From a virus, in the IMG/VR virus record IMGVR_UViG_3300044632_002453, positions 1 to 23,340 of that record: a stretch of DNA of 23,340 bases. One strand, written 5' to 3'. Below are positions 1,776 to 21,533 of this stretch, piece by piece; the first letter of the stretch is position 1, and every line of letters begins with the position of its first letter. Below the pieces are notes generated by a model, which worked only from the letters and a program-made list of their open reading frames with translations, was not told where the DNA came from and did no database searches. The position numbers and the translations under genes are program-made.

Positions 1776-4556
1776 ATGAAGTTTCTTAAAAAAAGAGATA
1801 ATTATCTTCAAACATTAAACGAAAGAAGAGAAATTCAAATCAATGAAAGATTTGAAAGAATACTTGAGAATCAAGCAGGCTCTGGTGTTATGGGTAATGA
1901 AATTAAATGGGGTGACTGTCTTTTGGGTAGATTACTTAGTAATATTGTTAGAAAATCACAAATTGGTGCAAACTTAGTAAGAATTAAACCTGTTGTTTCT
2001 CGATTGAAAAGTGCTATGGATGAGTTACTAATTGGTAGTGGATTCAATGATTTGGAAGGTAGAGATAAAGCTCTTTTTAATTTAGCTTTAGTTTCTGAGT
2101 ATTTAGACGTTTTGAAGGTTTCAGTTCAAAATTACGGAACTCCTGATGCAGTTGATGAATTTGATACACTTGAAGAGATAAAAGGGTTAGTTAAAGATAC
2201 TGTAAGTAAGTTAGAAGGAACAACCGCTACTCCTTATTTAGGAACTGGATTTGAGAACAAAAATGAGATTATAAGACAACTTAAGAAATTGGAAAAACAT
2301 CTTAATACATTAAAAGAACCAGTTGAAAAAAATAATGACCAGGACCAGGATCAAGACCAGGACCAAGACCAAAATTTGGATTCTGATGATACAAGAAAAA
2401 AATCTGATTTAGTTAACCAAGTTACTAAAAAAGCTGGTCTTTTATATTCAAAAAACTTTATTCATGTTATAAATCTTTATTTTATGGCATTGTCTTCAAA
2501 TACTGCTAATCCTAAAGCTCAAGAGATGATTAAAAAACAAATTGAACAACTTGAAGCTCAAATTAAAACAACAACTGATCCGGCTAAGAAAAAACAATTA
2601 GAGGATAAATTAGTGAGTTTAAAAGTTAAGACTAGTAGAAGTATTGGAGAGAGTATTATTTTCGAGAATGTATCTCAGGTAAATGCTGGAACATCTCTTA
2701 AAAACCTAATTCAAGTTTTTTCTAAACAAATGGGTAAAGAGGAAGCTAAGAAAGAGTTGAGGGAATTAAAAGGATCTTTAGAAAAAGGAGTAGGAAATTC
2801 TCAAATTATTAAAATTTATGAACAAATTAGAAATGAATTAGGCCTTAAAACTAAAATCGATGAAAATGTCGACCAAATACTTAATGATACAAAAGGAATT
2901 TCTTCTGTTATAAAAGGCCTTTGGAGTGTTGTTAAGTCAAAGGGTGGTGTGGTTGATGATCCAAATATTAGTCCTGAGATAAAAAAAGAGTTTAAGTTAT
3001 TTCATGATACAATGAAACCTTGTTTAGCTCTTGATTTATATATGATTGAAGAACAACCTAAAGAAGAATCAGAAGAGACTAAAGAAAATTTGGTTTTAAG
3101 ATATAATGGTTTTGTTAAAATGGTTAGAGAAGAAGTCACTATGAATAGTGGTCAAACATACTTCAATCAAAATCAAGGTGGTGGAAATCAAGGTGGAAAT
3201 CAAGGTGGAAATCAAGGTGGAAATCAAGGTAGTGCTGGTGTTGTATCTGGTGCTGCTGGTAATGTTGATGATAAAGACCAAACGTTAAAAGAATTTGCTG
3301 ACGATTTAAGAGATTGGTGGGATAAAAATTTAGATATCGACCAATATATTTTTAGTAAGCAAGATGCTGAAAAGGCAAAAGAACAGTTGGATAAAAAATT
3401 AGCCGCTGCTAAAGACTCAATAGTAATTGATGGAATGGATCCAGTATTGGAGATTGTTAAATGTTTCAACAGAGCTTATAAAATACACACTACACAAGTA
3501 ATTCCTTCTGGTAGATCAGGTGGTGCTGTTACAAACAAAATATTTATGGAATATACTTGTTTTGGTTCTGGAACTCCTCAAAACGCAGGTGAAAGTGGTG
3601 GTCCTTATAGAAATAACAAACTTTTTGACTTGTGGGAAAGTAATGTTTTAGATGTTCTTAAAGAAAAGAAGTATCAGAAAATATTTAGTCCTGATACAAG
3701 ATTGAAAGTTGGAAACGATTTTATTGAAAAAGCTGGTTCTAACTTAAGAAAATTTATGACTGATATGTTAAATGGTGATGAGTTCTATGGTAAAGGTGGT
3801 GATTCTAAAGGTGGTCTACAAGCAAAATTCTTAGATAAGTATTTTGGATATAAAGATGGTGATGATGCTAAAAATACTCACTTTGAAGGTATAACCGAAA
3901 GAGAAAATAATCAAAATAACACTCCGGATTCTATTACTGCTGATAAAATAGATGGTGGTAAGGAATTAGATGATGTTAAAGATCCGAATGATTTAGTGGG
4001 TACTTTCTTTTCAATTACTTACAAAACCGGTGGATATACTTACGAAAGGTATTTTTATATACAGGAGTTTAAAGATGGAAATTATTACGTTTCTTTTTGT
4101 CAATCAATTTATCATATGAAAAAAATGTTAGAGAAAGGTTCTTCTGGTAGAAGTTATAAGTTTTCAACTGAAAAATTTAAAATACAAACACTGAAAGAAG
4201 ACGGTAGTGGTCCTTATTTAATATCTTGTACACGAATGAAGCAAGATTCTATTAAAGGTGGTGCTTTTAATTTAGGAGCTGTGGCTGAATGTGCTTACAT
4301 ACAGCATGATTTTGAAAAAGAAGCTGGTGAGCGACCAAATAATTGTAACAAAGGAGAGAAATTTAAAGTTCTTTCTAAAGAGAATTGGCAAGTTGCTAGT
4401 GTGGATTGGATTGTTGACTCGTCTAATAATCAAAGATTAAAAGTAAATAGATTGGAAAAGGCAATCGAACATATTAAGTCCGAAGGTGGATTTGAAAAAA
4501 TTAGCTCTATTAGAGGAGATGTCTCAATTGATGCTGTTAGTCTGAGAAAAGGATAA
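1776..4556 (+). CDS. Large repeat-containing phage protein of unknown function, probably virion-associated
   Basis: The product has 926 residues from the ATG at 1776. An in-frame ATG at 1689 would add 29 residues, but it lies upstream of the TATATA box and adds no recognisable sequence. The N-terminus MKFLKKRDNYLQTLNE resembles the Lys/aromatic tag ending in Glu on several small proteins of this window. The protein is mostly helical and charged. It carries six DQ dipeptides (about residues 188-199) and four GGNQ units (about 469-484), both likely flexible linkers. A predicted coiled-coil segment lies near residues 245-280. A possible folded C-terminal domain (about residues 720-926) contains GTFFSITYKTGGYTYERYF. 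The gene lies directly upstream of a coiled-coil gene and the tail sheath, so a structural or head/tail role is plausible. I do not recognise a family. Confidence 0.85.
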   Translation: MKFLKKRDNYLQTLNERREIQINERFERILENQAGSGVMGNEIKWGDCLLGRLLSNIVRKSQIGANLVRIKPVVSRLKSAMDELLIGSGFNDLEGRDKALFNLALVSEYLDVLKVSVQNYGTPDAVDEFDTLEEIKGLVKDTVSKLEGTTATPYLGTGFENKNEIIRQLKKLEKHLNTLKEPVEKNNDQDQDQDQDQDQNLDSDDTRKKSDLVNQVTKKAGLLYSKNFIHVINLYFMALSSNTANPKAQEMIKKQIEQLEAQIKTTTDPAKKKQLEDKLVSLKVKTSRSIGESIIFENVSQVNAGTSLKNLIQVFSKQMGKEEAKKELRELKGSLEKGVGNSQIIKIYEQIRNELGLKTKIDENVDQILNDTKGISSVIKGLWSVVKSKGGVVDDPNISPEIKKEFKLFHDTMKPCLALDLYMIEEQPKEESEETKENLVLRYNGFVKMVREEVTMNSGQTYFNQNQGGGNQGGNQGGNQGGNQGSAGVVSGAAGNVDDKDQTLKEFADDLRDWWDKNLDIDQYIFSKQDAEKAKEQLDKKLAAAKDSIVIDGMDPVLEIVKCFNRAYKIHTTQVIPSGRSGGAVTNKIFMEYTCFGSGTPQNAGESGGPYRNNKLFDLWESNVLDVLKEKKYQKIFSPDTRLKVGNDFIEKAGSNLRKFMTDMLNGDEFYGKGGDSKGGLQAKFLDKYFGYKDGDDAKNTHFEGITERENNQNNTPDSITADKIDGGKELDDVKDPNDLVGTFFSITYKTGGYTYERYFYIQEFKDGNYYVSFCQSIYHMKKMLEKGSSGRSYKFSTEKFKIQTLKEDGSGPYLISCTRMKQDSIKGGAFNLGAVAECAYIQHDFEKEAGERPNNCNKGEKFKVLSKENWQVASVDWIVDSSNNQRLKVNRLEKAIEHIKSEGGFEKISSIRGDVSIDAVSLRKG
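2337..2372 (+). repeat. Six tandem 6-bp units encoding (Asp-Gln)6
   Basis: The unit is GACCAG with minor variants (GATCAA, GACCAA). It is in frame and encodes six DQ dipeptides inside the 1776-4556 protein. The third-position variation shows that it is not purely a recent slippage product. Confidence 0.9.
3180..3227 (+). repeat. Four identical 12-bp units encoding (Gly-Gly-Asn-Gln)4
   Basis: GGTGGAAATCAA is repeated four times without a single difference, in frame, within the 1776-4556 gene. Partial copies (AATCAAGGT) flank it. Exact identity suggests recent expansion by slippage and a length-variable linker. Confidence 0.93.
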
Positions 4557-5099
4557 ATGAGAATGAATCGTTTAAGAAGTTACATTCAGTTTAAAGAATC
4601 AATGGTTATTAGTTCAACTGATCAACCAGATGAGAAATTGGCTAAAGAGAAGGTTAATACTACTGAAGAACAGTTAAAAGAGTATAAAGAAAAGAAACCA
4701 AAGATTGAACAACTTTATTCTGTTACAAAGAACCCTGTTGAAATTGAAACTGAATTAAAAAAGTTAATGCCTGATGGTGAAGAACAAAATCCATTTTTAA
4801 CAGATTATTTGAGAATTTGTAGAATTCAAAAAGAAATTGAAGATGGTAGAAAATCAGATGTTGAGGATAAACAGAAAGTTGATGATTTTCAACAACAGCA
4901 AAAATTGGCATCTGATAAAGGAGAAATTTCCTCAATTGGTTCAAAAATAAGTGAAATCACAGACAGAGTAAAGAGTTTTGCAACAATTTTAAATCAAAAA
5001 TCACAAGAATTGAAAAAATTAATGACAGAACATAAAGAAAAAATGGCTCGAATTGAGCAAGATATCAAGCAAGATGTCAAAAAAATACAAACTAAATAG
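4557..5099 (+). CDS. Coiled-coil protein with head-targeting-like N-terminus
   Basis: This 180-aa protein starts MRMNRLRSYIQFKES; the second Met (4563) is an equally possible start. The N-terminus matches the tag seen on several other proteins here: basic start, aromatic residues, then F-K-E followed by Ser, like a T4 prohead-protease site. The rest is Lys/Glu-rich with long predicted coiled coils, about residues 27-60 and 130-178 (for example NQKSQELKKLMTEHKEKM). The ATG follows the upstream TAA with no gap, so the pair is surely one transcript and probably translationally coupled. Possible roles are an internal head, scaffold-like or tail-assembly component. No family is recognised. Confidence 0.82.
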   Translation: MRMNRLRSYIQFKESMVISSTDQPDEKLAKEKVNTTEEQLKEYKEKKPKIEQLYSVTKNPVEIETELKKLMPDGEEQNPFLTDYLRICRIQKEIEDGRKSDVEDKQKVDDFQQQQKLASDKGEISSIGSKISEITDRVKSFATILNQKSQELKKLMTEHKEKMARIEQDIKQDVKKIQTK

Positions 5100-5161: not shown

Positions 5162-8100
5162 ATGGCAATTCAAATTGGAAAATACAAAAGACCAGGAATC
5201 TTCATAGAAGAATTTGACAAGTCGCAAATCAGCAGTCCGGTTGTTGAGGGTATCACAAACCTTGTAATTGGAGTGTCTAAAAAAGGACCAGTTAACACGC
5301 CAATTAGAGTAACTACTACTGGTGAGTTGGAATCTATATTTGGTCAGTTAGACAGAGCTTTGGAAAGAAAAGGTTCTTTCTTCCATAGAACTGTGGCTAA
5401 GATGTTAGAAACATCTCCTGTGTTTGCTATGAACTTACTTTATACTGATGACGCACTTGATATAATCGAGTATCAATCTTTATCCGCAGCTTCTGCTAAA
5501 GATAATGACATCGAAAGAGAAGGTCCTTATAGAAGATTCTTTGACACAACAGGTTTCTGGAAGAGAGATACTGAGTCTTTCATTAATCTTACAAAAAATA
5601 ACACTGGATACGCAGATAGAGCATTTAGTATTACTAATATGTCTGATAGATATGTTTCTGTGTTTATTTTCAAATCAACAATGGTTGGTTTTGATAGAAC
5701 TTTACTTGAATGGTATGGTTCTATTGAGAAAATGCCAACTTATGTTAATCCACAAGATTACGCATCTGACTATATGGTTGATGTTGTTATTGTAGCTGGT
5801 GATTGGTCAAATTATCAAGAACTTGCTGTAGATCCAAGATGGAGTGCATACTTCAATAGTTCGGGTCTTAGAAAAGAACAAGTTAGAAATTTTGCTAATG
5901 ATAGAAACACAACAGCTTTAGCTTATTATGAAGGTCTTTCTTTGATTCCATATTTTAGAGATACAAATGGTAGAAATATTTTTATTGAAACAACAATTAA
6001 CAGAGATACGGCAAATACAGGTGTGTTCTGTGCATTTAACACAGATTTGATTGAGGTTGATTACTACAATGGTCTTTTAGACTTATTGGGTAATACTTTA
6101 GTTGATGCTGAAGAAACATCAATTAACTTCTTGTCTTATAGAGAGACAATCACTGAGGCGGTGAAAATTACAAACACTCCACTTGACTTACCAGGTAACG
6201 TAACATCTATGTTAGGTCAATTAGGAGCTTATGGTGTTTCTTATTCTTATACAGGACAATCACCACACGCTTTTGGTGATCCAAATAACTCAAATGTTGG
6301 TTCTCTAACTGAAGGTATTGTTACAAACGCTAATTATAGAACATCTTGGTATTCTGAGTTTTCAGTTTATGGTGTTGAGTTGGCATCAAATACTCCAGTT
6401 ACTTCTGGTTCTAATAGAACAGTTACTTATAATGTTAATAACGGAGCATACTGTATCATTGGAGATAAATTTGTTCCGATTTCAGCTACCGCTACCTTAT
6501 CAATTGATCCAACTGATTATCCTGTAAGTACTCAGGTAGCAACTTTTTCAACGGCTTTCTTAGTTGATTCAACTGGTGAGATTCAGTCTGCTACATCTTT
6601 GGTTGAAGGTGTTAAACCAGCTGTTTCTGCTAATGATATCATTTTAGGATATGTAGACTTTAGTGTTCAAAATGCGGCTTTTGTTACTGTTAACTCAGTT
6701 ACGCCTGTGAATTTAAATACTTCAGGATTTTATGATTACCAATGTGGAACCGCTGCTGGAGATGATTATTATATCTCTTTAGTTGATGCTTCAACTGGAA
6801 CTATTAAAGTTGAGTTTACTGGAACTGATACTAAACAATCTTTAACTAATTATGCACAATATAGAAGATTTAAACTATTTAACAGATTGGTTAATTTGAT
6901 AGACAGTCCAAACAAAAATAAAATGTCATTGTTGTTAAATCCAACAACATATGAAAAATATAGTTTTGAAAATATTGAGATTTCTGATATCGTGTTTAGC
7001 ACAACTCAGAATAAGTCATTTAATTTGAAAACCGGATTGACTTCTACTCAATTGGCTACTATATTAGATGGTTATTTTGTAATATATACAGAAGATAATG
7101 AGTTTCTTTTAGGTAAAGAAGGGGTTAAGACTAAAAACACGGTAGCTGATGCTAATATTGGTGTTGTTGGTAAAGAGTCTGTATTTTATGAAAGATATTT
7201 TGATGGTCAAATCAACACAAAAGACTTCTTCTATAGTAATAGATTATACGTAGATGATTCCGGTGGAACAGTAAATAACTTAATTGGGACATCAGTTGAT
7301 ATTATATTTGTTGATGGTGAAAGTGCACCAGCAACATCTGCTACATCTTCATACGCTGGGTATGACTACGTTGTATTCTACTCTGAGGGTGGAACTGGAT
7401 TTGATACTGAGATAAATTTAGCAACTTTCGAACAAATTCAATTCCCTACATCTGATAAGAATAAGGGTTCATTTACAATTGTTCAAAATGCTGTTGAACC
7501 AGGAGATACACCAACTATGTTGGCAAATGCTCTGGGTTATGTTGGTTCTGACTACTACGCTTACCAAGTTAATGAAGAAGTTGAGTATGAAGAATTGTTT
7601 GATGTGGTTCAAGTAAATGACTACTTAGTTAGACATTATTTAAAAATGTATTTAGATAATAATAACAATCTTGATGTTGAATTCTTGGATGTATTATTAG
7701 AGTCTGATGTTGATGCTGATGTTGAGGCAAATAACACATTCTATATTCAATCTGAAAAGTCAAACTTTAAACAAACATTAGAGTTAGAGCTTCCTACTGG
7801 ATATGTTCAAACACCTAATAAAGTTTTAATCAATGGTGAGAGATATACTGAGGTTAAAGTTGGTGACTTCTTAGAAGCTTATTATGATACTACTGCTTTA
7901 GCTATTGGTCAATTCCCAAGAAAATTAACAAGGGTATTATCTAAAAGACAATACGCTGGTGATCCTACACTTTCTGAAATCACTTGTGATGCTAGAATCG
8001 CTACAAGATTTAGTGGTGGAGCTTTACAGACTACAAGATATTCAACTGTAGACCAATATGCTACAACATATAAGGCTCTTTCATTGAAAGGATTTAGAAT

Positions 8101-9115
8101 TAGACAAGCATCTCTTCCAGATGGAACAGAAGCAAGACAAGATCAAATTTTGGATCTTGTTGGTAAGGGAACACCTCTTTTCAAAGCATTAACCAACAAA
8201 GAAGCAATTGACTTTAGATATTTAATTGACTCATTTGGTTTAGGTTTAACTGAAAAATCAAAACAACAGTTAGTTGATATCTGTGGTGATAGATTAGATG
8301 CATTTGGTTTCTTAAATATGCCATCTGCTAGAATGTTTAAAAACTCTTCTTCACCAACATTTGTTAATAGAGAAGGTGTCCTTCAAATGGAATTTGTTGC
8401 TAAAGGTGGTGATCCTGAAAGTAACCCAGCATTCCTTTACTCATTTGGAGATGGAGCTGGTTCGACTTGTGTTGGATACTTCTTCCCGTATGTTACAATT
8501 GGTGATAATGGTAGACCATTGGATCATCCACCGGCACCGTTTGTTGCTACAACGTATATGAGAAAACACGTATCAAATGCTGGTAACGTAACTGCTTGGA
8601 CGATAGCTGCTGGTGTTACTAACGGTAGAATCATCGGAATTAATTCATTGGAGCAAGATTTGACATCTTCTGATATTGAGTATCTAAATCAAGCACAAAT
8701 GAATCCACTTGTATTTAAAAGAAATAGAGGATACATTATCGAAACTGAGAATACAGCTCAAACTCTTTACAAATCAGCTCTTTCTTACATCCACGTAAGA
8801 GAGGTCTTAATAGAACTTGAAAGAGAGTTATCAAGAATGTTATTAGACTTCCAATGGAAATTTAATACACCAGATATCAGAGCTGAAATTAAGTTAAGAG
8901 CAGACACTATCTGTGACACTTATGTAAGTAAGAATGGTTTATATAACTACTTCAATAAAATGGATGATGAGAATAACACACCAGAAATTATTGATAACCA
9001 AATCGGTGTTCTTGATACATATGTTGAACCAATCAAAGGTATGGGTATTATTGTTAACAACATTACGATACTTAGAACTGGAGCAATCGATGCTGGTGGT
9101 TTCGAAAACGCATAA
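5162..9115 (+). CDS. Tail sheath protein (T4 gp18-like), about twice usual length
   Basis: This is the contractile sheath subunit that surrounds the tail tube and shortens to drive the tube through the host envelope. The N-terminus (KYKRPGIFIEEFD, then TNLVIGVSKKGPVNTPI and GELESIFG) and the C-terminal third carry gp18-family features. The latter include REVLIELERELSRMLLDFQW, the helical arm, the ITILRTGA strand and a long central sheath core. T4 gp18 has 659 residues; this one has 1317. The extra length lies mainly at about residues 390-900, rich in Thr/Ser/Gly/Tyr beta-type sequence, and is probably inserted outer domains exposed on the sheath surface. A TATATATA box precedes it and a strong terminator follows. 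The start ATGGCAATT has an A-rich leader and no Shine-Dalgarno. Confidence 0.95.
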   Translation: MAIQIGKYKRPGIFIEEFDKSQISSPVVEGITNLVIGVSKKGPVNTPIRVTTTGELESIFGQLDRALERKGSFFHRTVAKMLETSPVFAMNLLYTDDALDIIEYQSLSAASAKDNDIEREGPYRRFFDTTGFWKRDTESFINLTKNNTGYADRAFSITNMSDRYVSVFIFKSTMVGFDRTLLEWYGSIEKMPTYVNPQDYASDYMVDVVIVAGDWSNYQELAVDPRWSAYFNSSGLRKEQVRNFANDRNTTALAYYEGLSLIPYFRDTNGRNIFIETTINRDTANTGVFCAFNTDLIEVDYYNGLLDLLGNTLVDAEETSINFLSYRETITEAVKITNTPLDLPGNVTSMLGQLGAYGVSYSYTGQSPHAFGDPNNSNVGSLTEGIVTNANYRTSWYSEFSVYGVELASNTPVTSGSNRTVTYNVNNGAYCIIGDKFVPISATATLSIDPTDYPVSTQVATFSTAFLVDSTGEIQSATSLVEGVKPAVSANDIILGYVDFSVQNAAFVTVNSVTPVNLNTSGFYDYQCGTAAGDDYYISLVDASTGTIKVEFTGTDTKQSLTNYAQYRRFKLFNRLVNLIDSPNKNKMSLLLNPTTYEKYSFENIEISDIVFSTTQNKSFNLKTGLTSTQLATILDGYFVIYTEDNEFLLGKEGVKTKNTVADANIGVVGKESVFYERYFDGQINTKDFFYSNRLYVDDSGGTVNNLIGTSVDIIFVDGESAPATSATSSYAGYDYVVFYSEGGTGFDTEINLATFEQIQFPTSDKNKGSFTIVQNAVEPGDTPTMLANALGYVGSDYYAYQVNEEVEYEELFDVVQVNDYLVRHYLKMYLDNNNNLDVEFLDVLLESDVDADVEANNTFYIQSEKSNFKQTLELELPTGYVQTPNKVLINGERYTEVKVGDFLEAYYDTTALAIGQFPRKLTRVLSKRQYAGDPTLSEITCDARIATRFSGGALQTTRYSTVDQYATTYKALSLKGFRIRQASLPDGTEARQDQILDLVGKGTPLFKALTNKEAIDFRYLIDSFGLGLTEKSKQQLVDICGDRLDAFGFLNMPSARMFKNSSSPTFVNREGVLQMEFVAKGGDPESNPAFLYSFGDGAGSTCVGYFFPYVTIGDNGRPLDHPPAPFVATTYMRKHVSNAGNVTAWTIAAGVTNGRIIGINSLEQDLTSSDIEYLNQAQMNPLVFKRNRGYIIETENTAQTLYKSALSYIHVREVLIELERELSRMLLDFQWKFNTPDIRAEIKLRADTICDTYVSKNGLYNYFNKMDDENNTPEIIDNQIGVLDTYVEPIKGMGIIVNNITILRTGAIDAGGFENA

Positions 9116-13017: not shown

Positions 13018-13314
13018 TTATCTATTAATCCATCCACCATCTGGTAATGCTGGAAGAGGCATCCAGTGAGTTATTTCTTGTCCAAAGAATTGTTTTGGTC
13101 CAGACGTTTTCCATTCATAGTCTTTACTATTGTTAGTTGATGGGTGTTCTGTTTTTATTAACCTCACTATCTCATATCCTGGACCACCATTAGATCTAAT
13201 TTCTCGTCCTAAGACAAATTCATTTTCATTTGGTAATTGTTCATCACATGAAATCCAGGTTCCATAATTCAAACTTTCAAAAATTCTAAAATTGTTAATT
13301 TGTTTTTTTCTCAT
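13018..13314 (-). CDS. DUF551 domain protein with head-targeting-like N-terminus
   Basis: The 98-aa product begins MRKKQINNFRIFESLN and then shows the DUF551 pattern: GTWISCDEQLPNENEFVL near residues 18-35 and ITHWMPLPALPDGGW near the end. DUF551 is common in phages and prophages; its function is unknown. The N-terminal segment ending IFE before Ser looks like a T4-type prohead-protease site ([L/I]-x-E before a small residue). The gene has its own TATATA box 21 nt upstream. The gene plus that box lies between two identical 42-bp repeats, as if it were a movable cassette. A weak AT hairpin (13006-13021) overlaps its stop. Confidence 0.85.
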   Translation of the reverse strand: MRKKQINNFRIFESLNYGTWISCDEQLPNENEFVLGREIRSNGGPGYEIVRLIKTEHPSTNNSKDYEWKTSGPKQFFGQEITHWMPLPALPDGGWINR

Positions 13315-13334
13315 AATCTTTTTTTTTAATAATC

Positions 13335-13340
13335 TATATA
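13335..13340 (-). promoter_or_regulatory. TATATA box upstream of the DUF551 gene
   Basis: On the minus strand TATATA ends 21 nt before the ATG at 13314. It lies between the gene and copy 2 of the direct repeat, inside the cassette. Confidence 0.45.
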
Positions 13341-13359
13341 TTTAATTTAAAAACTAATT

Positions 13360-13401
13360 TTTTATCAAACTGTAATTATATTTCAGTGAAATTATATTTT
13401 T
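13360..13401. repeat. 42-bp direct repeat, copy 2
   Basis: The stretch is identical to 12959-13000. It overlaps the last codons and TAA stop (13392-13394) of the cupin-like gene, so this copy is probably the ancestral position and copy 1 the derived one. Confidence 0.95.
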
Positions 13402-13652
13402 TTCAATTTTATTTTCAAGTCACTACTTCCTTTTATTAATCGGTGATAAACACCCATTGGTATAAACACTTTACCTTCAATCTTTTTTGGAAGTTCATCA
13501 TCTAATTGTATCAACCAATCTGTCTGACTAATTGATTCAATTATTCTATCTTCTCTATCACGATGCCAGACAAACTCTCCAGAATCCGTATATTGACCGA
13601 ATACTCTGATAAATTCATTATCACTCAATTTAGTTTCTTGAAATGGTAACAT
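13392..13652 (-). CDS. Small cupin-like phage protein
   Basis: The 86-aa protein carries patterns of a minimal cupin barrel. GEFVWHRDREDRIIE (His30, Asp32, Glu39) resembles the first metal-binding motif, and GKVFIPMGVYHR (Gly60, Pro65, Gly67, His70) matches the second motif (G-x4-P-x-G-x2-H). Similar short proteins occur in large myoviruses from memory, without known function. It has no head-targeting-like tag, unlike its neighbours. Its ATG overlaps the upstream stop by one base (TAATG), indicating translational coupling. The stop lies within direct repeat copy 2. Confidence 0.8.
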   Translation of the reverse strand: MLPFQETKLSDNEFIRVFGQYTDSGEFVWHRDREDRIIESISQTDWLIQLDDELPKKIEGKVFIPMGVYHRLIKGSSDLKIKLKKI

Positions 13653-14044
13653 TAACTTACTATTTGTTTATATCTTTCTTTGAATTTATCAATTTTAACT
13701 AACCAATTATCTTTCACATCACAGTCTTCCACATATTCTTTGACTCTTGGTTCAACATATAATAAAAGTTCTCTTATTTGTCCTATAAATGCTGATAACA
13801 ACTTAGGATTATTGTATAATAAACTAGTATCATCAATTATTTGAGTATAGGTTTTCCCATTTATAAGAGGTTCTCTAAGTCTTTTCATCATATCGGTTAA
13901 TTCATTAGTTGCTTTTTGATCAACTCCTCTTTTAGTTATTTGTGAGAAGCCCATCGTTATTAACATGCCAAAATCAAGCAGAAAGTCAGTGATGAATTTT
14001 CTGTTAGCAGATTCAAATATTTGATATGTTTTTAAGTGTTTCAT
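13652..14044 (-). CDS. Tagged small protein, candidate internal head protein
   Basis: The 130-aa protein starts MKHLKTYQIFESANRKF. This is close to the T4 internal-protein propeptide MKTYQEFIAEA in spacing and residues, and IFE before Ser-Ala fits a prohead-protease cut. The remainder is helical (TNELTDMMKRLREPL, IGQIRELLLYVEPRVKEY) and unrecognised. It sits 2 nt after the stop of 14047-14958 and overlaps the cupin-like gene by one base, within one minus-strand operon. Packaging in the head is inference from the tag; the mature protein's role is unknown. Confidence 0.8.
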   Translation of the reverse strand: MKHLKTYQIFESANRKFITDFLLDFGMLITMGFSQITKRGVDQKATNELTDMMKRLREPLINGKTYTQIIDDTSLLYNNPKLLSAFIGQIRELLLYVEPRVKEYVEDCDVKDNWLVKIDKFKERYKQIVS

Positions 14045-14046
14045 AA

Positions 14047-14958
14047 TTACCAGTAACCAGGATAAGTTTTACCACCCCATAGGTGTCCATATTTGTTAAT
14101 TCTACAGGCCCAATATCCAGCTTTAGTTTTATCTTTCTTAGTTGAACATTTATGTCTAGCAGCAAAAGACTTTCTAGCTTCTGGATTACTTACTTTAGCT
14201 GTTAAACCACCGTGTACATCACCAAAAGCAATCTTTTTAACATTTCCCGTTTTAGGATTTTTTACATATACGTAGTATTTTTTAGTTCCACCACGCATTG
14301 GATAGTTTAACTTAACTTCTTTTCCTTTATATTCAGCTTCATTCAACTCTTCAATGGTTTCCATTGGTAAATCCAAAGGAACTAACTCACCATTAAAGTA
14401 TGCGAATTTTCCTATTTCTGTAGATTCATAAAGTTCTTTATCTATGTCACAAAGTTCAATTTCATTTTTATCAAAAAGTCTACGGGCTTCTTTAATCATT
14501 GAGAAAAACTTTTCAGAACCAGGTCTAAAAATACTTTCTGAAACAGGTATTCCTTTTATAATATGAAACATTAAATCATCAGATGCTAATTCCGAAGACT
14601 CTTCATCTTCGTCACATTTACAATCTTCGCATCCACATTCACAATCTTTACAACCAGTGCAATTATTACAACATCCACATCCTTCACCTTCTTCGTATTC
14701 TGAATCAAATTCATCATCTGACTCTTCATCTCCGAATTCGTTTTCACACTCCATTTTTTCAACATTATCAATATTAATTTCAATAAAAGCTTCAAATTTT
14801 TGAACTTTTTCTAAGTCTTTTTTGAACTTTTTTTCTATTTTTTCTTGGTCTTCTACCGAAGTTTTGATTGTAGGATTAAAATCTTTATCTTTTTCTAAAG
14901 ACTTTGAATTGAAAGTTATTTCTTGATCTACTTCATTAAACTTTTTAATTCGTTTCAT
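14047..14958 (-). CDS. Tagged phage protein with ten-Cys cluster and conserved C-terminal domain
   Basis: The 303-aa protein begins MKRIKKFNEVDQE (tag). Residues 70-120 are very acidic, and residues 94-115 hold ten Cys (CGCCNNC, GCKDCECGC, CKC), metallothionein-like in density. The C-terminal 95 residues form a domain widespread in large phages but of unknown function: YYVYVKNPKTGNVKKIAFGD, then NPEARKSFAARHKC, DKTKAGYWACR and KYGHLWGG. ELNEAEY (residues 204-210) before that domain matches the T4 prohead-protease consensus, with the cut predicted after Glu207. The precursor could therefore release the conserved domain during head maturation. The start lies 8 nt after the upstream stop. The propeptide model is inference. 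Confidence 0.85.
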   Translation of the reverse strand: MKRIKKFNEVDQEITFNSKSLEKDKDFNPTIKTSVEDQEKIEKKFKKDLEKVQKFEAFIEINIDNVEKMECENEFGDEESDDEFDSEYEEGEGCGCCNNCTGCKDCECGCEDCKCDEDEESSELASDDLMFHIIKGIPVSESIFRPGSEKFFSMIKEARRLFDKNEIELCDIDKELYESTEIGKFAYFNGELVPLDLPMETIEELNEAEYKGKEVKLNYPMRGGTKKYYVYVKNPKTGNVKKIAFGDVHGGLTAKVSNPEARKSFAARHKCSTKKDKTKAGYWACRINKYGHLWGGKTYPGYW

Positions 14959-14966
14959 ATTGTTAC

Positions 14967-15176
14967 TTATTTTTTCTGGAACATTCCATCTAATACTTGA
15001 TACATCGCATCTACAACACCATAAGAGTCAACTCCGAATTGACCTTCGTATTTGTCTACAATTTGCATCATATCTTTTTCAAGTTCAGACCATTTATCTT
15101 TTTGTTCTGGTTTTCTTCCGCTTTTTAGAACTTCATCCCAGTCGAATTCCTCATTAAATCTTTTTATATGTTTCAT
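14967..15176 (-). CDS. Small tagged protein
   Basis: The product has 69 residues from the ATG at 15176, starting MKHIKRFNEEFDWDEVL. A longer reading from 15209 was rejected because it would overlap the upstream gene heavily and hide the tag. The ATG overlaps the upstream TGA as ATGA, which decides the start and implies coupling. The body is helical and acidic (WSELEKDMMQIVDKYEGQFG, then VVDAMYQVLDGMF). Its tag K-R-F-N-E is almost the same as K-K-F-N-E of the next gene. No family is recognised. Confidence 0.82.
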   Translation of the reverse strand: MKHIKRFNEEFDWDEVLKSGRKPEQKDKWSELEKDMMQIVDKYEGQFGVDSYGVVDAMYQVLDGMFQKK

Positions 15177-15544
15177 TTTATACTCATCATTTTTAAAACT
15201 TGAGCACATTTCTCATAATCTTCGATTTGCTCTAGTTCTTTAAGATATTCCTTTAATTGATTTCTATTCGATAGTTCTAGTTTTATTCTAAATCTTATTT
15301 CTTCCAATTCTTTCATGTTATTAGCGTGTCCGTCAATAATTTTATTTATTGTGTATTTGTCGGTTTTTTTAGAATAGACAAAATCATCCCAGGTATATAT
15401 TTTATTATCATTTAAAAAATTAATAATTTCTTCAATGCAAATATCAATGTTTGACTTTGGTTGAGGTTTTGATTTTTTTCTACCAAATATTTTCTTAAAA
15501 AATTCCTCATTTAAGAAATCACCATAATTATGAATTTTAGACAT
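15173..15544 (-). CDS. Small tagged helical protein with UVR-like C-terminus
   Basis: The 123-aa protein starts MSKIHNYGDFLNEEFFKK, a looser form of the N-terminal tag (aromatic residues then L-N-E). A basic stretch GRKKSKPQPKS follows, then a helical body. Its last 30 residues (LKEYLKELEQIEDYEKCAQV) resemble the UVR-type helical motif and the 57-aa ORF at 12731. It is the first gene of the minus operon running to 13392. A TATATATA stretch lies only 5 nt before the ATG. Divergent from it is the giant baseplate gene. No function is known. Confidence 0.8.
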   Translation of the reverse strand: MSKIHNYGDFLNEEFFKKIFGRKKSKPQPKSNIDICIEEIINFLNDNKIYTWDDFVYSKKTDKYTINKIIDGHANNMKELEEIRFRIKLELSNRNQLKEYLKELEQIEDYEKCAQVLKMMSIK

Positions 15545-15548
15545 ACTC

Positions 15549-15557
15549 TATATATAT
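15549..15557 (-). promoter_or_regulatory. TATATATAT stretch at the start of the tagged-protein operon
   Basis: It lies 5 nt before the ATG at 15544, like the box at 783-790. Such spacing would give an almost leaderless transcript if used as a -10 element, so the assignment is tentative. Confidence 0.3.
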
Positions 15558-15588
15558 TATTTTTGTCGATTGAGAAATAGAAAATTAA

Positions 15589-15614: not shown

Positions 15615-18600
15615 ATGTCCAATCATAAAAAATTAGTCTTCTTTAACAAAGAGGGTGATTATTTAAATTTTCAATATAACCAATTAGATGATAGATTCGA
15701 AGGAGATATTCTTTTTCATGAGAATTCAACTGATACATTTAAGACATATGCAATTTATATGCTTGAAGATGTGCCTTCATTTGAGTTTGAGTCACCTGGT
15801 GAATTAACAACAAATAAATTTCAGTTATTTAATGAATATGGATTTCATTTTTATGGTGCAAAATTCTATAATCAAAAAATTACTAAAGTAGAGCCGGTAA
15901 ATAATGATCCCGAATTTTATACAAAATGGATTTATGGTCAAGGTTTTGATGCTAAATTTCCAGTTGGTTCTATTATTCAATTTGATAATATTGGACTTGA
16001 GTTCACCGATTTAACACAGACTTATGTAGTAGTTGGTTCAAAACAAGGAGCTATTATGATTTTAACTCAAATGGACAATGCGACTTTTGAGTCTACATAT
16101 TTTACTACTTACATAGAGCCTGAAATTTATCAAAACTTTTCTTTATCCGGTATAAATGCTTTTGGTGTTTATGATTATGTTGATGGTAACTATAATGATA
16201 GACTTTCTAAGTGGAATGAACCAGAATTTTATAGTAAATATTATATTAAAAAGAAACTAAATGTAGTAGGTAGTGGTAAAAATGATGGAATTTATACAGT
16301 TAAAGATGTAAATTTAGCTGATACGGTTCACTATGAATACTCAGTTAGTAAAAATAGTCTTCCTCAAAATTCTGATTTGATAATAGAGGTTATAACAAGA
16401 ACAGATGTTCCTCTTGTTTATACTGGTCAGATTGATTTTATTTCTGGTGGAAAGATGACTGTTTTAGAAGATTATCCTCAAATTTTAAAACCAGGTGTTG
16501 AATTTAAAATAGTTGGTTCGGTTACTCATAGTAATTTCTTTACTGTGGAGGAGATGCCTCAATTCTCTGAAATCAATTCAACTTATTATTTCGCAACTGC
16601 TTCTCAAGTTCTTTTTAATAATAGAGTTTATGAATGTACTCAAGCATATACTATAAGATTTGATTCGGTTGGTGATTTGACTGGTGTTTCAACGATAAAT
16701 CCTGAAAATCCTGGTTATTGGACAAGTAATCCTACCTATATCAGGGTAAAAGAACCTACATTTGATGAGGTTTTAAATAATGGTCAAATTTATCTTACTA
16801 CTGATAGGTATTATTATACTTTTGGATGGACTTCTTCAGCTGAGGCAACTTTAGCTTCTGTTGCTGAAAAATTTGCTATTGATTTAAAACTATTTAACAT
16901 AGATTTATTCTATATTGATAGACTTAGAGCTGATTTGGTTTATCCATCAAATTATGCAAAAGTTAATTTTTATCACACACAAGTTGGTGCAACATATTCA
17001 ATTGGTTCTGTCAAACAAGCTAGAGAAAGACTTGTTGAGGTTGTAGAACCTTTTAAATATGAGTTGAACTACAATTATTCTGTTAATAAAAAATATAACA
17101 TCGTTTTTACTGATATTGATCAACAAGGAATTCAATTAAGTATCAATAAAATGATTTATGATGAGGCAGTTGCTTTTTTATATAGTGGTGGATTGATTGA
17201 TATGGAGAGAACAATTGATAGAACTGTTAGAAATTGGTTAAAAAGATGGTATTTGAGATTGTTTCAATTAGGAATAACTGCTGAGTTAAAATATACCGGA
17301 ACTTTCAATTCTGTATTCTATAATACAATTGTTTTAAAATCAACATACCCTAATGTTCCAATGAATTTAGAATATGTAAAAGTAGGAGTTACTGCTGATT
17401 ATTATATTGAACATACAAAAATTCAATTTACTGATTTAGGTCCTTACTTAAATATTAAAATAAATGATAAAGACTATGGTCAGGAAACAATATTTTCAGG
17501 AACTACTCCAAATATTGGGGCTACTTTAGATGCTTGGCAAGAAGCACATCAAGATTTTCTACTTGAGTTTGGAATTGTTGCCAGAGCTTATAATACCATT
17601 TTGAAATTAAATATAAAATCTTTAATAAGACTTGATGTTTCAATCGCAACTGGTAAAATCAATAAACCAGGTTTATTTGATTATAAAGTGACGAAATATA
17701 TGATTGGAAATCCTGGTGTATTAGTTGCTTCAAATGAAGTGAAGTTACCTTCTTCTTCAGATTTTAACTTTGAACAAACAGGATTCTCAACTGGAATGGC
17801 CTTCTCTATAAACAACACTCAATATCCATGGGTTAATCAAGATTATACTATTCAGTTTTTAGACCCACAGGTGTTAAATTTAAGCTATCAAGGACCATTT
17901 TGGGGATTAACTCAAAATCCTTGTGACGCCTCTGGATTTATGACATTGGCATTTGATGCTGGTTTTGGTCAAACCGATTGTACTATACCGGTTTCTCCAA
18001 CTGCTGCAACTGGGGCTTCTGGTCCCGGTGGTCCATTTGACCCTCAGATGTTTGATCCTACAATGTTTACCGTTATATTCAATCCTAATGGATATACATT
18101 AAATACTTATGATTTGAGTTTTTATCCAGGAACTACTAACTTGGTTGATATTGAATATATTCAGTTAACAAATGCTGTTTATGGTTTTGGTGACCATTTA
18201 GTTGTTATCGATGCTCTTTATGGATATTATATCACTACCATCGATCTTATTGGAAATACTCAATCTATTGAAATGGAATTCAATCCATTGAATAGTTATC
18301 TTTACTGTCTTTCTAAAGAGTATATGTGGATTATTGATCCTACTTCTAATATATTAGTTTCTTCTGTTACGTTTAGTGGTGGAGCTTTAGCTTATGATAT
18401 GGAAATTAATCCATTTAATGGTGATGTTTATGTTACTTATGAGAACAAAACATATATAAATATTTGGAGTGTTGATAATATTAACCAAACACCGACAACT
18501 TCAATATCTACAACAGCTTATGGATATCCTGGATCAATGGTCTTCAATGATTTTGAGGGTGATATGTATGTAACTTGTGGAACAAGTTCGGTTTTAAGAA

Positions 18601-21533
18601 TTAGTGGTGGTGTTCCTGGTGATGATTTTACAGGGGCTTTTGCTTTTCCTGGAAATCCAAATAGAGTTTTACAAACATCTTATGGAATTCCGGCTGTTGT
18701 GAAAGATTATATTTTTTATGAACCAGTAAATGAGGCAATTTACGTTTATGGAAGTAGTAGTCTTTGGAAAATTGATAATGGGATCACTCAATCATCGTCT
18801 CTTACATATAGTGGATTCAGTGATATCATATTTAATAATATAACAAGTGAGATGAACATCTCTGATGCTTCATTGTTATTTACAAGATTAAATTTATCAG
18901 AAGACAGTGGAACACAATTAGCTATTGCAAATTACGGATATCTTACTGTTAATCAATATGATGGTGATATTTACTTATCATCTCAGTCAATGAATAACAT
19001 TGTTGTGCTTCAGGGTTCAACTGGTCTTATAATACACACCGAGCCTTTGAATGCACCGACTGGTAGAATTATTTTTAATCCAGAGAGGAATTCAGCTTGG
19101 GCAATACAGCCATCAACTCAACAAATAGTTGAAATACAAGTTGACTTAAATCTTTCAATTCTACAAGCGGCTCCAACATTTTCTGAAGTTGGTGAAAATA
19201 ATTATGGAACTTTAGCTCCAACATATCAGCCAAAAGAAAGTGTTTGGTTGAAAACTCGTCAGTATTTTAGAAGACCAAGAGAGAATTTTGAAGGAGATGT
19301 TTCGGTTAAATATTATTGGAGATGGATGACCGACCAAGTTAAAGACTTTTTCTTATATGATTTTTCAGGTAATCAGTTAGAAACAACAAGTTCATATGCT
19401 TATACCGGACCTAAGCCACTTCTGGATATAGTATTGAATAATAATCCTAACAGAGATTTGACCAAGACTAATATTCCTGGAAACCAACAAACAGTTTTTG
19501 AGCAAATTGAATATACACTAAGTTATATAGATGATGAAGATGATGTTTCTGTTGAAACTGAATCTATGGAATTATTTATTGGTTATAAATCTGAAAAAGA
19601 AGGGGCTATTAGAAATGTTTTACAATTGTATAAAAAAGAAGAAATAGACTTTGATATTATGTCTGATTCTGTTAATTATATAACATTTAAGACATTAAAT
19701 ACAAATGGTGATAAGAGAGGTATAATTTCACTTAGTGATACATCTACTGAAATATTTACCGGTAGAGGTTTAAAACAAGGTCATCAGATTGTTATTTATA
19801 TAACAGATCCAACTAATCTAAAAAAACAATATATTTCAAATAATAATGCAATAGTTGTTAAAATTAGAGACGTTTTTACTAGAACTATTGTTGTTGACTT
19901 TTTTAATGTTGACTATGACTTTTTAGAAGAAGAAAAAACAATAGTTACTGATTACCCAAGTATTGGAAAAACAACTTATCTAAAAGTTAGAATTAAAGTA
20001 AAAGATAAAGAGATTGGTAGATTTGTAACATATGGTGAAACAACAGAGGAAGATATAAGATTCAAAATTGAGTTAGGAAATATCGGAAAATTAATTGCCC
20101 CTGATGAGGTATTTATTTTCAAAGAATATGATATTTTAGAAGGAGGTATTGATTGGAAGATTCTAAACCGTAAAAGAAAAGAGATGTTAATGAATAGAAA
20201 CTTAATCTATCCTTACATTGGTTCTTATAAATCTTTAGTAAACGCTATAAACTATTTTGGATACAATGACTTACAACTTAATGAGTATTATAGAAATACT
20301 GATGGTTTTTCTAAAGACTTTGGAAAGCTTTTCAAAGTCGAAATTCCTGATGTTTTTGATAATACTATAAAGGGTTGGAATGAAAGAGACTTTTTACAAA
20401 AATATTTACCAAATGATAAGTATGAAGAAACAAATATGTTTAATTTGACTTATTTTATAACTGATAAAGAAGGAAATTATATTTTAGAGTATAGTCTTGA
20501 TGAGATAATTATTAAACTACAAGGTTTAAAGTATTGGTTAAAAAGAAATATCATACCACTCACACATAAGATTATGGATATAACAGGTGTGTCTTATTTT
20601 ACAGGTGGAACTTACATTGATCATGTTGTATATGATGTTAGAAATATTAAAATAAAAGAGGATATGACACCGATAACATTCAAATTGAATGAAGCTTATC
20701 TTTATCCTGTAAACTCTGGATCAACAGTTTATAATTGTGTATTAGATTTTTATACTATAATTGAGGGATATGGTGAAAAACCTGAATACGCTAATTTGAT
20801 GTCAAGTTATTTTGTTAAAGCTGGTAAATTAATAGATGCTAAGCCATTTAGACCTTATAATGATTATAAAGATATTATTCAGTTACCTGATGTATTTGAT
20901 ATTAAAATAAGAACTTACAAGATTTATAAAGAGTGGGCTCCTTATACAATTTACTCAAAGGATGATAAGATATTCTATTTTGATAAATTGTATATTTCTA
21001 CAAAAGATAATAATAAATTAAATAATCCGAGAAAATATGAAAATGTTGAAGAGTGGGTTCCTTTAGTGAGTGCGAGTCCATTGGAAATCCTTACAAACGG
21101 AAATCCGGTTTATGATGATTCACCAAAGTATCAAGTTGGAACTATAGTAAAGTATAAAGGTGAGATTTATAACTTCAGTGGATTGGGTGCTACTGGTTCA
21201 ACTGTTTCTCCGGAGTTTGATCCTAACAACTGGTTAAATGTAACTGATTGGAAAGAGATTCCTAATGAGCCTGTTCAGTATATAACTGAATTTAGAAGAG
21301 GAGATGATTTAAATCCATTTAATTTTACAATAGATTCGAATATAGATCCTTTCTTAGTTATTGAAGTTGTATCTCATAATGGATATGGTCAGATATATAA
21401 AGATCAAAAAAATTATCAAATAAAGGGATTAAAAGATTTAACTGAGCCTTATAAATATTTAGACCCAATTGGTCCATTTATTCCTATTAAACCAATAGAA
21501 GAACAAGTTATTGCTGGTGGTGGTGGAATTTAA
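15615..21533 (+). CDS. Giant tail/baseplate structural protein with embedded beta-propeller
   Basis: The protein has 1972 residues. The C-terminal third includes GGIDWKILNRKRKEMLMNRN and IGSYKSLVNAINYFGY (about residues 1506-1552), which resembles the P2 gpI / T4 gp7-type wedge region. That suggests a baseplate wedge subunit; T4 gp7 has 1032 aa. A Gly/Pro linker (TGASGPGGPFDP) near residue 800 leads into a beta-propeller (about 835-1180) made of YVTN/NHL-like blades, for example EINPFNGDVYVTY and FNDFEGDMYVTC. Three W/Y-rich motifs (about 330-375, 1769-1817, 1838-1880; YKGEIYNFSGLG ... NNWLNV) look like chitin-binding type CBM5/12 modules. Together these suggest a wedge protein with added host-surface binding parts. 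It is co-transcribed with 21548-22318. The wedge assignment is moderate, the propeller better supported. Confidence 0.8.
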   Translation: MSNHKKLVFFNKEGDYLNFQYNQLDDRFEGDILFHENSTDTFKTYAIYMLEDVPSFEFESPGELTTNKFQLFNEYGFHFYGAKFYNQKITKVEPVNNDPEFYTKWIYGQGFDAKFPVGSIIQFDNIGLEFTDLTQTYVVVGSKQGAIMILTQMDNATFESTYFTTYIEPEIYQNFSLSGINAFGVYDYVDGNYNDRLSKWNEPEFYSKYYIKKKLNVVGSGKNDGIYTVKDVNLADTVHYEYSVSKNSLPQNSDLIIEVITRTDVPLVYTGQIDFISGGKMTVLEDYPQILKPGVEFKIVGSVTHSNFFTVEEMPQFSEINSTYYFATASQVLFNNRVYECTQAYTIRFDSVGDLTGVSTINPENPGYWTSNPTYIRVKEPTFDEVLNNGQIYLTTDRYYYTFGWTSSAEATLASVAEKFAIDLKLFNIDLFYIDRLRADLVYPSNYAKVNFYHTQVGATYSIGSVKQARERLVEVVEPFKYELNYNYSVNKKYNIVFTDIDQQGIQLSINKMIYDEAVAFLYSGGLIDMERTIDRTVRNWLKRWYLRLFQLGITAELKYTGTFNSVFYNTIVLKSTYPNVPMNLEYVKVGVTADYYIEHTKIQFTDLGPYLNIKINDKDYGQETIFSGTTPNIGATLDAWQEAHQDFLLEFGIVARAYNTILKLNIKSLIRLDVSIATGKINKPGLFDYKVTKYMIGNPGVLVASNEVKLPSSSDFNFEQTGFSTGMAFSINNTQYPWVNQDYTIQFLDPQVLNLSYQGPFWGLTQNPCDASGFMTLAFDAGFGQTDCTIPVSPTAATGASGPGGPFDPQMFDPTMFTVIFNPNGYTLNTYDLSFYPGTTNLVDIEYIQLTNAVYGFGDHLVVIDALYGYYITTIDLIGNTQSIEMEFNPLNSYLYCLSKEYMWIIDPTSNILVSSVTFSGGALAYDMEINPFNGDVYVTYENKTYINIWSVDNINQTPTTSISTTAYGYPGSMVFNDFEGDMYVTCGTSSVLRISGGVPGDDFTGAFAFPGNPNRVLQTSYGIPAVVKDYIFYEPVNEAIYVYGSSSLWKIDNGITQSSSLTYSGFSDIIFNNITSEMNISDASLLFTRLNLSEDSGTQLAIANYGYLTVNQYDGDIYLSSQSMNNIVVLQGSTGLIIHTEPLNAPTGRIIFNPERNSAWAIQPSTQQIVEIQVDLNLSILQAAPTFSEVGENNYGTLAPTYQPKESVWLKTRQYFRRPRENFEGDVSVKYYWRWMTDQVKDFFLYDFSGNQLETTSSYAYTGPKPLLDIVLNNNPNRDLTKTNIPGNQQTVFEQIEYTLSYIDDEDDVSVETESMELFIGYKSEKEGAIRNVLQLYKKEEIDFDIMSDSVNYITFKTLNTNGDKRGIISLSDTSTEIFTGRGLKQGHQIVIYITDPTNLKKQYISNNNAIVVKIRDVFTRTIVVDFFNVDYDFLEEEKTIVTDYPSIGKTTYLKVRIKVKDKEIGRFVTYGETTEEDIRFKIELGNIGKLIAPDEVFIFKEYDILEGGIDWKILNRKRKEMLMNRNLIYPYIGSYKSLVNAINYFGYNDLQLNEYYRNTDGFSKDFGKLFKVEIPDVFDNTIKGWNERDFLQKYLPNDKYEETNMFNLTYFITDKEGNYILEYSLDEIIIKLQGLKYWLKRNIIPLTHKIMDITGVSYFTGGTYIDHVVYDVRNIKIKEDMTPITFKLNEAYLYPVNSGSTVYNCVLDFYTIIEGYGEKPEYANLMSSYFVKAGKLIDAKPFRPYNDYKDIIQLPDVFDIKIRTYKIYKEWAPYTIYSKDDKIFYFDKLYISTKDNNKLNNPRKYENVEEWVPLVSASPLEILTNGNPVYDDSPKYQVGTIVKYKGEIYNFSGLGATGSTVSPEFDPNNWLNVTDWKEIPNEPVQYITEFRRGDDLNPFNFTIDSNIDPFLVIEVVSHNGYGQIYKDQKNYQIKGLKDLTEPYKYLDPIGPFIPIKPIEEQVIAGGGGI

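Follow-up and report, generated by a model that had tools for sequence, protein, structure and literature searches.

A 23,340-nucleotide fragment of virus DNA (IMG/VR record IMGVR_UViG_3300044632_002453, positions 1 to 23,340; hereafter the window) carries a minus-strand run of six genes, from 15544 to 13018, in which five of the encoded proteins begin with a similar short peptide that we refer to as the tag. The exception is the gene at 13392-13652. A first-pass annotation of this DNA had named seven such N-termini, five in this run and two on the plus strand, and had read them as capsid-targeting signals of the kind that sends internal proteins of phage T4 into the prohead. All seven are present. 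The minus-strand proteins start MSKIHNYGDFLNEE (15544), MKHIKRFNEE (15176), MKRIKKFNEV (14958), MKHLKTYQIFES (14044) and MRKKQINNFRIFES (13314), and the plus-strand proteins start MRMNRLRSYIQFKES (4557) and MKFLKKRDNYLQTLNER (1776).

We scored the window tags against windows at internal methionines using a model trained on the huge-phage genome LR745206. The model consists of two blocks, a basic/aromatic block followed by [ILF]-x-E-[SA]. The common pattern held for four of the seven proteins at p<0.001 (15176, 14958, 14044 and 4557) and reached p=0.0095 for 13314; 15544 was not significant (p=0.10), and 1776, which did not bear the pattern out, is doubtful (p=0.11). Among the window tags, the exact spacing of the T4 leader, YxxFLxE, occurs only in 15544.

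Table 1. Positions of the tags, coding sequences (CDS) and promoter-like motifs discussed in the text; aa, amino acids.
Feature	Coordinates	Strand	Remarks
Doubtful variant tag MKFLKKRDNYLQTLNE	1776..1823	+	926-aa protein 1776-4556; model p=0.11
N-terminal tag MRMNRLRSYIQFKE	4557..4598	+	180-aa protein; model p=0.0008
CDS, 180 aa, adjoins tail sheath gene	4557..5099	+	Homologues compared
Tail sheath, untagged	5162..9115	+	Used to place the window phage among huge phages
CDS, 98 aa, DUF551 (residues 20-91) with N-terminal extension	13018..13314	-	Domain and homologue comparison
N-terminal tag MRKKQINNFRIFE	13276..13314	-	Precedes DUF551 domain; model p=0.0095
Promoter-like motif AATATATA	13335..13342	-	Upstream of DUF551 gene
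CDS, 86 aa, untagged, within tagged run	13392..13652	-	68 homologues found
CDS, 130 aa	13652..14044	-	Homologues and predicted structure
N-terminal tag MKHLKTYQIFE	14012..14044	-	130-aa protein; model p=0.0005
CDS, 303 aa, acidic	14047..14958	-	Residues 205-286 match PHROG 7595 (unknown function)
N-terminal tag MKRIKKFNE	14932..14958	-	303-aa acidic protein; model p=0.0005
CDS, 69 aa	14967..15176	-	LR745206 homologue starts MKHIKRFNEGEEFNWDDV
N-terminal tag MKHIKRFNE	15150..15176	-	69-aa protein; model p=0.0002
CDS, 123 aa, first gene of tagged operon	15173..15544	-	Homologues compared
N-terminal tag MSKIHNYGDFLNE, T4 spacing YxxFLxE	15506..15544	-	123-aa protein; model p=0.10
Promoter-like motif AATATATA	15551..15558	-	Upstream of tagged operon

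We compared the N-termini of homologues, up to 22 distinct ones displayed per window protein. The 15544 protein has 25 homologues, and [FY]xxF[IL]NE is kept in 12 of the 13 displayed, the remaining one lacking the methionine; the tag is retained down to 44% identity in the body of the protein. Most of the 22 displayed among 64 homologues of the 4557 protein likewise carry a recognisable tag, at body identities down to 28%. N-termini vary among homologues of the 14958 protein, some of which have no clear tag, and the extension of the window DUF551 protein is missing from its LR756501 homologue. The weakest member, 1776, has several homologues that start MKYLxxRxxYL or alike, a looser variant. 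None of the 22 distinct N-termini displayed for the untagged protein at 13392-13652 carries the tag. One homologue of the 14044 protein starts MKSYKEFLFES, which is almost the T4 leader and has no upstream methionine, and the others displayed start like MKHLKTYQIFES; the two forms therefore interchange within one family. In the predicted structure of this 130-residue protein, residues 1-10 have a mean predicted local distance difference test score (pLDDT) of 47 and are followed by a confident helical body; a fold search with the protein gave no match at E<=0.001. Apart from the DUF551 protein, the tagged window proteins had no match in Pfam.

By the identity of its tail sheath, the window fragment is grouped with the huge Mahaphage phages, whose curated genomes span 634-735 kilobases (kb). 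The sheath is 68% identical to that of LR745206 (634,780 bases) and 63% identical to that of LR756502 (642,428 bases), with more distant kin in LR756504, LR756501, LR756500, the Lak phages, Tenacibaculum phage pT24 and Sphingomonas phage PAU. Mahaphage is the name given by Al-Shayeb and colleagues to the clade of the largest of these phages (PMC7162821). We called genes in the whole genomes of LR745206, LR756504, LR756501, LR756500, pT24, PAU and T4, in 460,000 of the 541,643 bases of Lak-A1, and in 140,000 bases of LR756502 plus 20,000 around its protease gene.

The first-pass annotation had expected more N-termini of this kind across a complete genome, and they recur genome-wide in the relatives. 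At threshold 10, the model tagged 120 of 882 proteins in LR745206 (635 kb), where about 8 would be expected from the rate in a control of 1,257 real N-termini from Lak-A1, pT24, PAU and T4 (11/1,257); some control N-termini are themselves tagged, hence the comparison is conservative. LR756502 (140 kb) and LR756504 served as hold-outs and yielded 45/220 and 38/825, and LR756501 yielded 65/932. A model trained on LR756500, where the form differs slightly (MKYIKEYEEFINEA), tagged 40/619 of its proteins vs 8/1,257 in the control. The tag is thus found on some 5-20% of the predicted genes in five huge phages.

Simpler patterns gave a similar picture. A regular expression derived from the window, which is circular for the window itself (5/23 genes; internal methionines 0/108), matched 94/882 N-termini in LR745206 (internal methionines 32/2,909), 73/932 in LR756501 (18/3,645) and 12/273 in pT24 (17/1,314). 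It was not enriched in LR756500 (15/619; internal methionines 25/1,684), Lak-A1, PAU or T4, where any tags present differ in form. A strict expression derived from T4, [FY]xx[FY][ILVF]xE[AS], matched 21/932 in LR756501 (internal methionines 2/3,596), 9/882 in LR745206 (0/2,865), 9/619 in LR756500 (0/1,668) and 8/825 in LR756504 (1/2,439); its two matches among the 1,257 control N-termini are T4 ipII and ipIII. The union of three strict patterns matched 60/882 in LR745206 and 69/932 in LR756501 vs 5/1,257 in the control, three of these being in T4. An unsupervised scan of gapped residue triplets recovered the same enrichment in LR745206 and LR756500. Tagged genes also adjoin one another more often than in any shuffle in LR745206 (38 adjacent; shuffle mean 14.0), LR756500 (14; 2.6) and the LR756502 part (19; 5.6). 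Across 191 IMG/VR loci, 169 of 1,612 distinct genes carry the tag vs 18 of 7,771 internal methionine positions; these loci were fetched with the window genes and the protease described below, so that many of the tagged genes are orthologues of a few families. One of the loci encodes a leucine-rich-repeat-like protein whose N-terminus, MKHLKTYQIFEKAN, closely resembles the tag of window 14044 but sits on an unrelated body.

That the rest of each tagged protein differs, as had been noted for the window, is confirmed on a larger scale: 142 tagged proteins of LR745206 fall into 133 body families, and 44 of LR756500 into 38. The tag is nearly absent from core genes. Among 30 T4 and window core queries with an LR745206 homologue, some of which share a gene, RNA ligase alone matched a tagged gene; none of 27 matched a tagged gene in LR756504, and the two of 25 flagged in LR756501 have N-termini that look like false calls. 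Recognisable domains on tagged LR745206 proteins include those of the T4-type RNA ligase, of a nucleotidyltransferase of the poly(A)/CCA type (domain start at residue 39) and of a 2H phosphoesterase that matches Acb1 below threshold and is joined to an exonuclease. The RNA ligase is tagged in LR745206, LR756502, G001 and G003; the LR756504 and LR756501 homologues start at the ligase itself, and the pT24 ligase also has no tag. Four of five Acb1-like proteins are tagged. In these two families, the tag is an extension added to known domains in some phages and missing in others. Individual scans of 20 tagged LR745206 proteins left 11 without any family at E<=0.01.

We also aligned 130 of 133 tagged LR745206 proteins (alignment A1; two crossed piece borders and one of 1,284 residues was excluded) and 145 of 152 tagged LR756501 proteins (alignment A2; six crossed borders and one large protein was excluded). 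The Pfam families considered were 25 of 34 for A1 and 25 of 84 for A2; several of the latter, such as TonB receptor and response regulator, suggest false tags. A segment resembling DI[LF]x[DE]LxDxG, possibly a small shared domain, occurs in 10/133 tagged vs 5/749 other LR745206 proteins and in 7/47 vs 2/173 in LR756502. Huge phages are reported to carry N-terminal extensions on ribosomal protein S21 (PMC7162821). We considered whether these extensions are the tag and rejected the idea: among the 14 records, bS21 was detected in seven, and all seven open reading frames (ORFs) lack the tag.

In form, the huge-phage tag resembles the capsid-targeting sequence (CTS) of T4 internal proteins (Mullaney and Black 1996, cited in PMC9026906 and PMC9958956). 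In genetic analysis of T4 IPIII, residues 4 and 7 proved mainly responsible for targeting, and residues 8 and 10 for processing (PMC9026906, section 2.6). In huge-phage tags with T4 spacing, the conserved columns are exactly these four positions. Both are short N-terminal leaders shared by unrelated proteins, and in a subset of the huge-phage tags, aromatic residues stand at 4 and 7, I or L at 8 and E at 10. T4 spacing, resembling [FY]xx[FY][IL]xE, is seen in 22 of 40 LR756500 tags. The remaining tags are shorter or shifted variants, such as KFNES and KTYQIFES, and the end of the tag favors Glu and Ser/Ala, giving the cleavage-like [ILF]xE[SA]. Unlike T4, which has a handful of tagged proteins, the huge phages have about 40 to more than 100 per genome and many short forms. 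The inner head proteins of phiKZ and SPN3US similarly bear N-terminal propeptides that a prohead protease cuts off; several of those exceed 100 residues, whereas the huge-phage tag is about 9-19 residues long and is found on many more proteins (PMC5694885). In T4 itself, gene 61.1 (NC_000866, 18966-19130) encodes a 54-residue hypothetical protein that starts MKTFKEFIKED, the leader pattern of internal proteins; gp61.1 may be an unlisted packaged protein of T4.

A protease that could cut such a leader is encoded in the relatives, as the first-pass annotation had anticipated. At E<=10, the gp21-type S77 protease (PF03420) was detected in all but one of the 14 related records; four scored above the curated cut-off and nine below it (E 3e-6 to 1.5e-4), and one had no match. 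The contexts GExxHP and SSRxxG and that of an Asp are common to T4 gp21 and the huge phages aligned, with STR for SSR in PAU. We take the catalytic residues to lie within these His, Ser and Asp contexts. The protease gene adjoins the gp23-type capsid gene in LR745206 and LR756501. T4 gp23 loses 65 residues on maturation (PMC9958956), so that the cut falls between FGSFLTE and AE, a match to the tag motif; the aligned huge-phage capsid proteins have [ILM]xEN near residue 45 in nine of nine cases.

The protease of four tag-rich genomes carries a fused tandem array of 10-12 units, each 14 residues long (NIAYSEYIAENLDK) and holding the tag motif: the unit pattern, [FY]xx[FY][IL]xE, is the same as that of the tag. 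The LR745206 protease (707 residues) has 11 unit matches, 10 of them in a run, compared with a mean of 0.19 and a maximum of 3 in shuffles. The arrays of LR756502 and LR756504 have 11 matches each with 10 in a 14-residue run, and that of LR756501 has 15 with 12 in a run. All 31 ORFs taken from 80 IMG/VR loci have 10-13 unit matches (25 of the 31 ORFs entered alignment A3; alignment A4 comprises 22 loci from a set of 31, plus the window). One contig, IMGVR_UViG_3300042894_007079, encodes an array-protease ORF together with a protein that shows 100% identity over 130 residues to the product of window 13652-14044. While the motif contexts are shared with T4 gp21, the protein of the four genomes is a single chain of about 700-800 residues with 10-12 units, and T4 has a separate gp22, whose [IL]xE sites are loosely similar to the array units.

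The tag also keeps company with a particular upstream motif. [AT]ATATATA precedes 152 of 329 tagged genes and 17 of 30 structural genes, compared with 7 of 45 replication/metabolic genes and 367 of 2,237 others. In the window, this promoter-like motif precedes the genes at 538, 1285, 1776, 5162, 9245, 10477, 13018, 15173 and 15615, among which are the tagged run and tail genes; no such motif stands before the SbcD-like gene at 11604.

Tag sets of other forms were found in two more distant phages. In PAU (NC_019521), 15 of 285 proteins start MK[TS][LI]xx[LM][FY]E[SA] (MKTLxKLYEA-like), compared with 0 of 1,190 internal methionines, and this form was absent from the eight other phages. The PAU genes span 9-160 kb, with 13 of them clustered between 100 and 121 kb around the protease gene (111 kb); this supports a link between tag and protease. 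In pT24, 10 of 273 proteins start with [IV]xx[YF][IL]xE (internal methionines 4/1,300). The 460 kb of Lak-A1 read yielded neither a clear array nor a convincing tag set (looser union pattern 5/461 vs 7/2,234 internal methionines, p=0.04), and no tag was apparent by eye among the N-termini inspected in 13 kb of 121Q and the first 50 kb of RaK2, two jumbo phages whose virion proteomes are published. Each lineage seems to have its own dialect of the tag.

Collectively, these results indicate that the tag is probably a T4-type CTS joined to a gp21-type cleavage site and spread over a large set of accessory genes. At the sequence level, the earlier T4-like reading is strongly favored by the recurrence, the subset that fits the IPIII positions, the protease, the array, the upstream motif and the near absence from core genes; it needs qualifying in that the majority of tags fall short of the full T4 length. 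In this reading, each tagged protein would be recruited through its tag to the core of the assembling prohead. Cleavage by the S77 maturation protease would then occur just behind the tag Glu (between [ILF]-x-E and S, A or N), and the cargo would be retained in the capsid until it leaves together with the DNA when the next cell is infected. Packaging, cleavage after the Glu and delivery to the host are steps that we infer from sequence, as are core binding and the part that the RNA ligase, Acb1-like enzymes and similar cargo would play against host defence.

The fusion of the protease to tag-like units leads us to propose how the tag might work. By imitating one scaffold unit of the array, it would join the core, where the fused protease would cut scaffold and cargo alike. 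We advance this mimicry tentatively, as somewhat less than an even prospect. In its fuller version, the head scaffold would be a polymer of its own capsid-targeting signal, with single-unit cargo joining by homotypic packing and freed by the scaffold-fused protease; this we rate much as the mimicry itself, a little short of even. The PAU and pT24 tags, which occur without an array, weaken the case for mimicry: the array accompanies several of the largest tag sets, not the tag as such.

Several further results weigh against this interpretation. Concerning the array, the LR756500 protease has three unit matches, none in a run, despite the many tags of that phage, and the array is absent from tag-bearing PAU (0 matches), pT24 (1 match) and T4. 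No S77 protease was found in the window, a short fragment of 23,340 bases, and at pLDDT 52.6 the AlphaFold model of the protease with its array did not have the quality that a fold search needs. Concerning the tag, T4 spacing is in the minority in LR745206 (18/120), LR756502 (2/45), LR756504 (12/38) and LR756501 (19/65). The strict expression was not enriched in the LR756502 part (1/220, p=0.4) and failed to recover T4 ipI and alt. Among reciprocal best hits between LR745206 and LR756501, tag status was uncorrelated (2 pairs tagged in both, 10 and 16 one-sided, 133 in neither; p=0.63), and likewise with LR756500; several of the one-sided pairs look tagged in both by eye. Adjacency stayed within the shuffle maximum in LR756501 (30; mean 19.1) and LR756504 (5; mean 1.5). 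A model trained on LR756501 was loose (57/1,257 control N-termini at threshold 10). It was applied to LR756501 in the family, adjacency, array-loci and upstream-motif analyses, and we prefer the LR745206-model counts. All gene starts depend on a simple in-house caller, and the literature yielded no virion proteomics or biochemistry of these phages. This counter-evidence weakens the proposed mechanism more than it does the existence of the tag.

That no virion proteomics was found for these phages also gives some room to the view that the tag sorts proteins elsewhere, to the cell membrane, a phage compartment, the tail or the baseplate, and that its likeness to T4 is partly coincidental. Most tags indeed lack the full T4 length, an RNA ligase or similar cargo could be useful in the infected cell without packaging, and another motif of LR756501, DPYGEExW, suggests that short sorting motifs may serve other ends. 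We nevertheless consider this view unlikely, given that a subset fits the four functional positions of IPIII, that [ILF]xE[SA] closes the tag, that the tag unit is repeated in the protease protein and that the PAU set lies largely around the protease gene. About as improbable, perhaps marginally less so, is that the tagged proteins are mostly parts of the head core or scaffold, needed for assembly and undelivered to the host. The 133 body families of LR745206 are beyond what a core would need, and some members have enzyme domains (RNA ligase, poly(A)/CCA-type nucleotidyltransferase, 2H phosphoesterase with exonuclease), even if the upstream motif is common with structural genes, the array shares the tag motif, and the window proteins besides DUF551 have no Pfam match, the one that was folded having no confident match in the PDB. 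It is scarcely credible that the tag arises incidentally from AT-rich, Lys-rich N-termini or from what translation initiation requires. Lys-rich starts are common, and Lak-A1, pT24 and PAU show a basic N-terminal bias in the de novo scan; against this stand the near absence of the three-pattern union from the control, the overlapping guanine-plus-cytosine contents of the genomes, the preference for Glu and Ser/Ala at the tag end, and the retention of the tag by homologues of low body identity.

If the tag is a capsid-targeting signal as proposed, a large protein payload would enter the cell along with the phage DNA. One copy each of the 133 tagged LR745206 proteins (threshold 9) amounts to about 3.1 megadaltons (MDa). 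The ejection proteins of SPN3US exceed 40 MDa (PMC7411985), so about 10 copies of each would come near that load. Under the scaffold-polymer proposal, about 100 different proteins (~3 MDa at one copy each in LR745206) would be loaded, including RNA-repair enzymes and enzymes of a type that counters the cyclic-oligonucleotide-based antiphage signaling system (CBASS), and the tandem tag-like protease-scaffold would provide a concrete, testable answer to the open question of what the T4 targeting sequence binds. The tag turns some 5-20% of genes in the five phages into a list of candidate injected proteins, anti-defence-type enzymes included; a 2026 review describes Tad1 as so far the sole anti-defence protein known from jumbo phages (PMC13282480). 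The PAU and pT24 sets belong to isolates, which makes the idea testable in cultured phages. Among the literature titles and abstract openings covered, which included few subscription papers and little of bioRxiv, no report of the tag set or of a PAU or pT24 proteome appeared.

Two observations lie outside the tag. The window also encodes a 1,972-residue protein at 15615-21533 that has no PHROG match and has homologues in LR745206, LR756504 and LR756501. The motif DPYGEExW had no phage report among the titles and abstract openings listed, where the one DPYGEE match was a paper on yeast peptides. It is found in one LR745206 protein and in none of LR756504, LR756500 or the LR756502 part. In LR756501 (735 kb), 94 of 932 predicted proteins contain it, with 109 copies in all; W stands in last place in 103, and 41 copies fall within the final 14 residues. 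The corresponding degenerate DNA pattern matches at 109 places, every one of them in frame, and nowhere else. Counting the variable codon, 87 different 24-base codings are used, and the motif therefore looks selected as protein.

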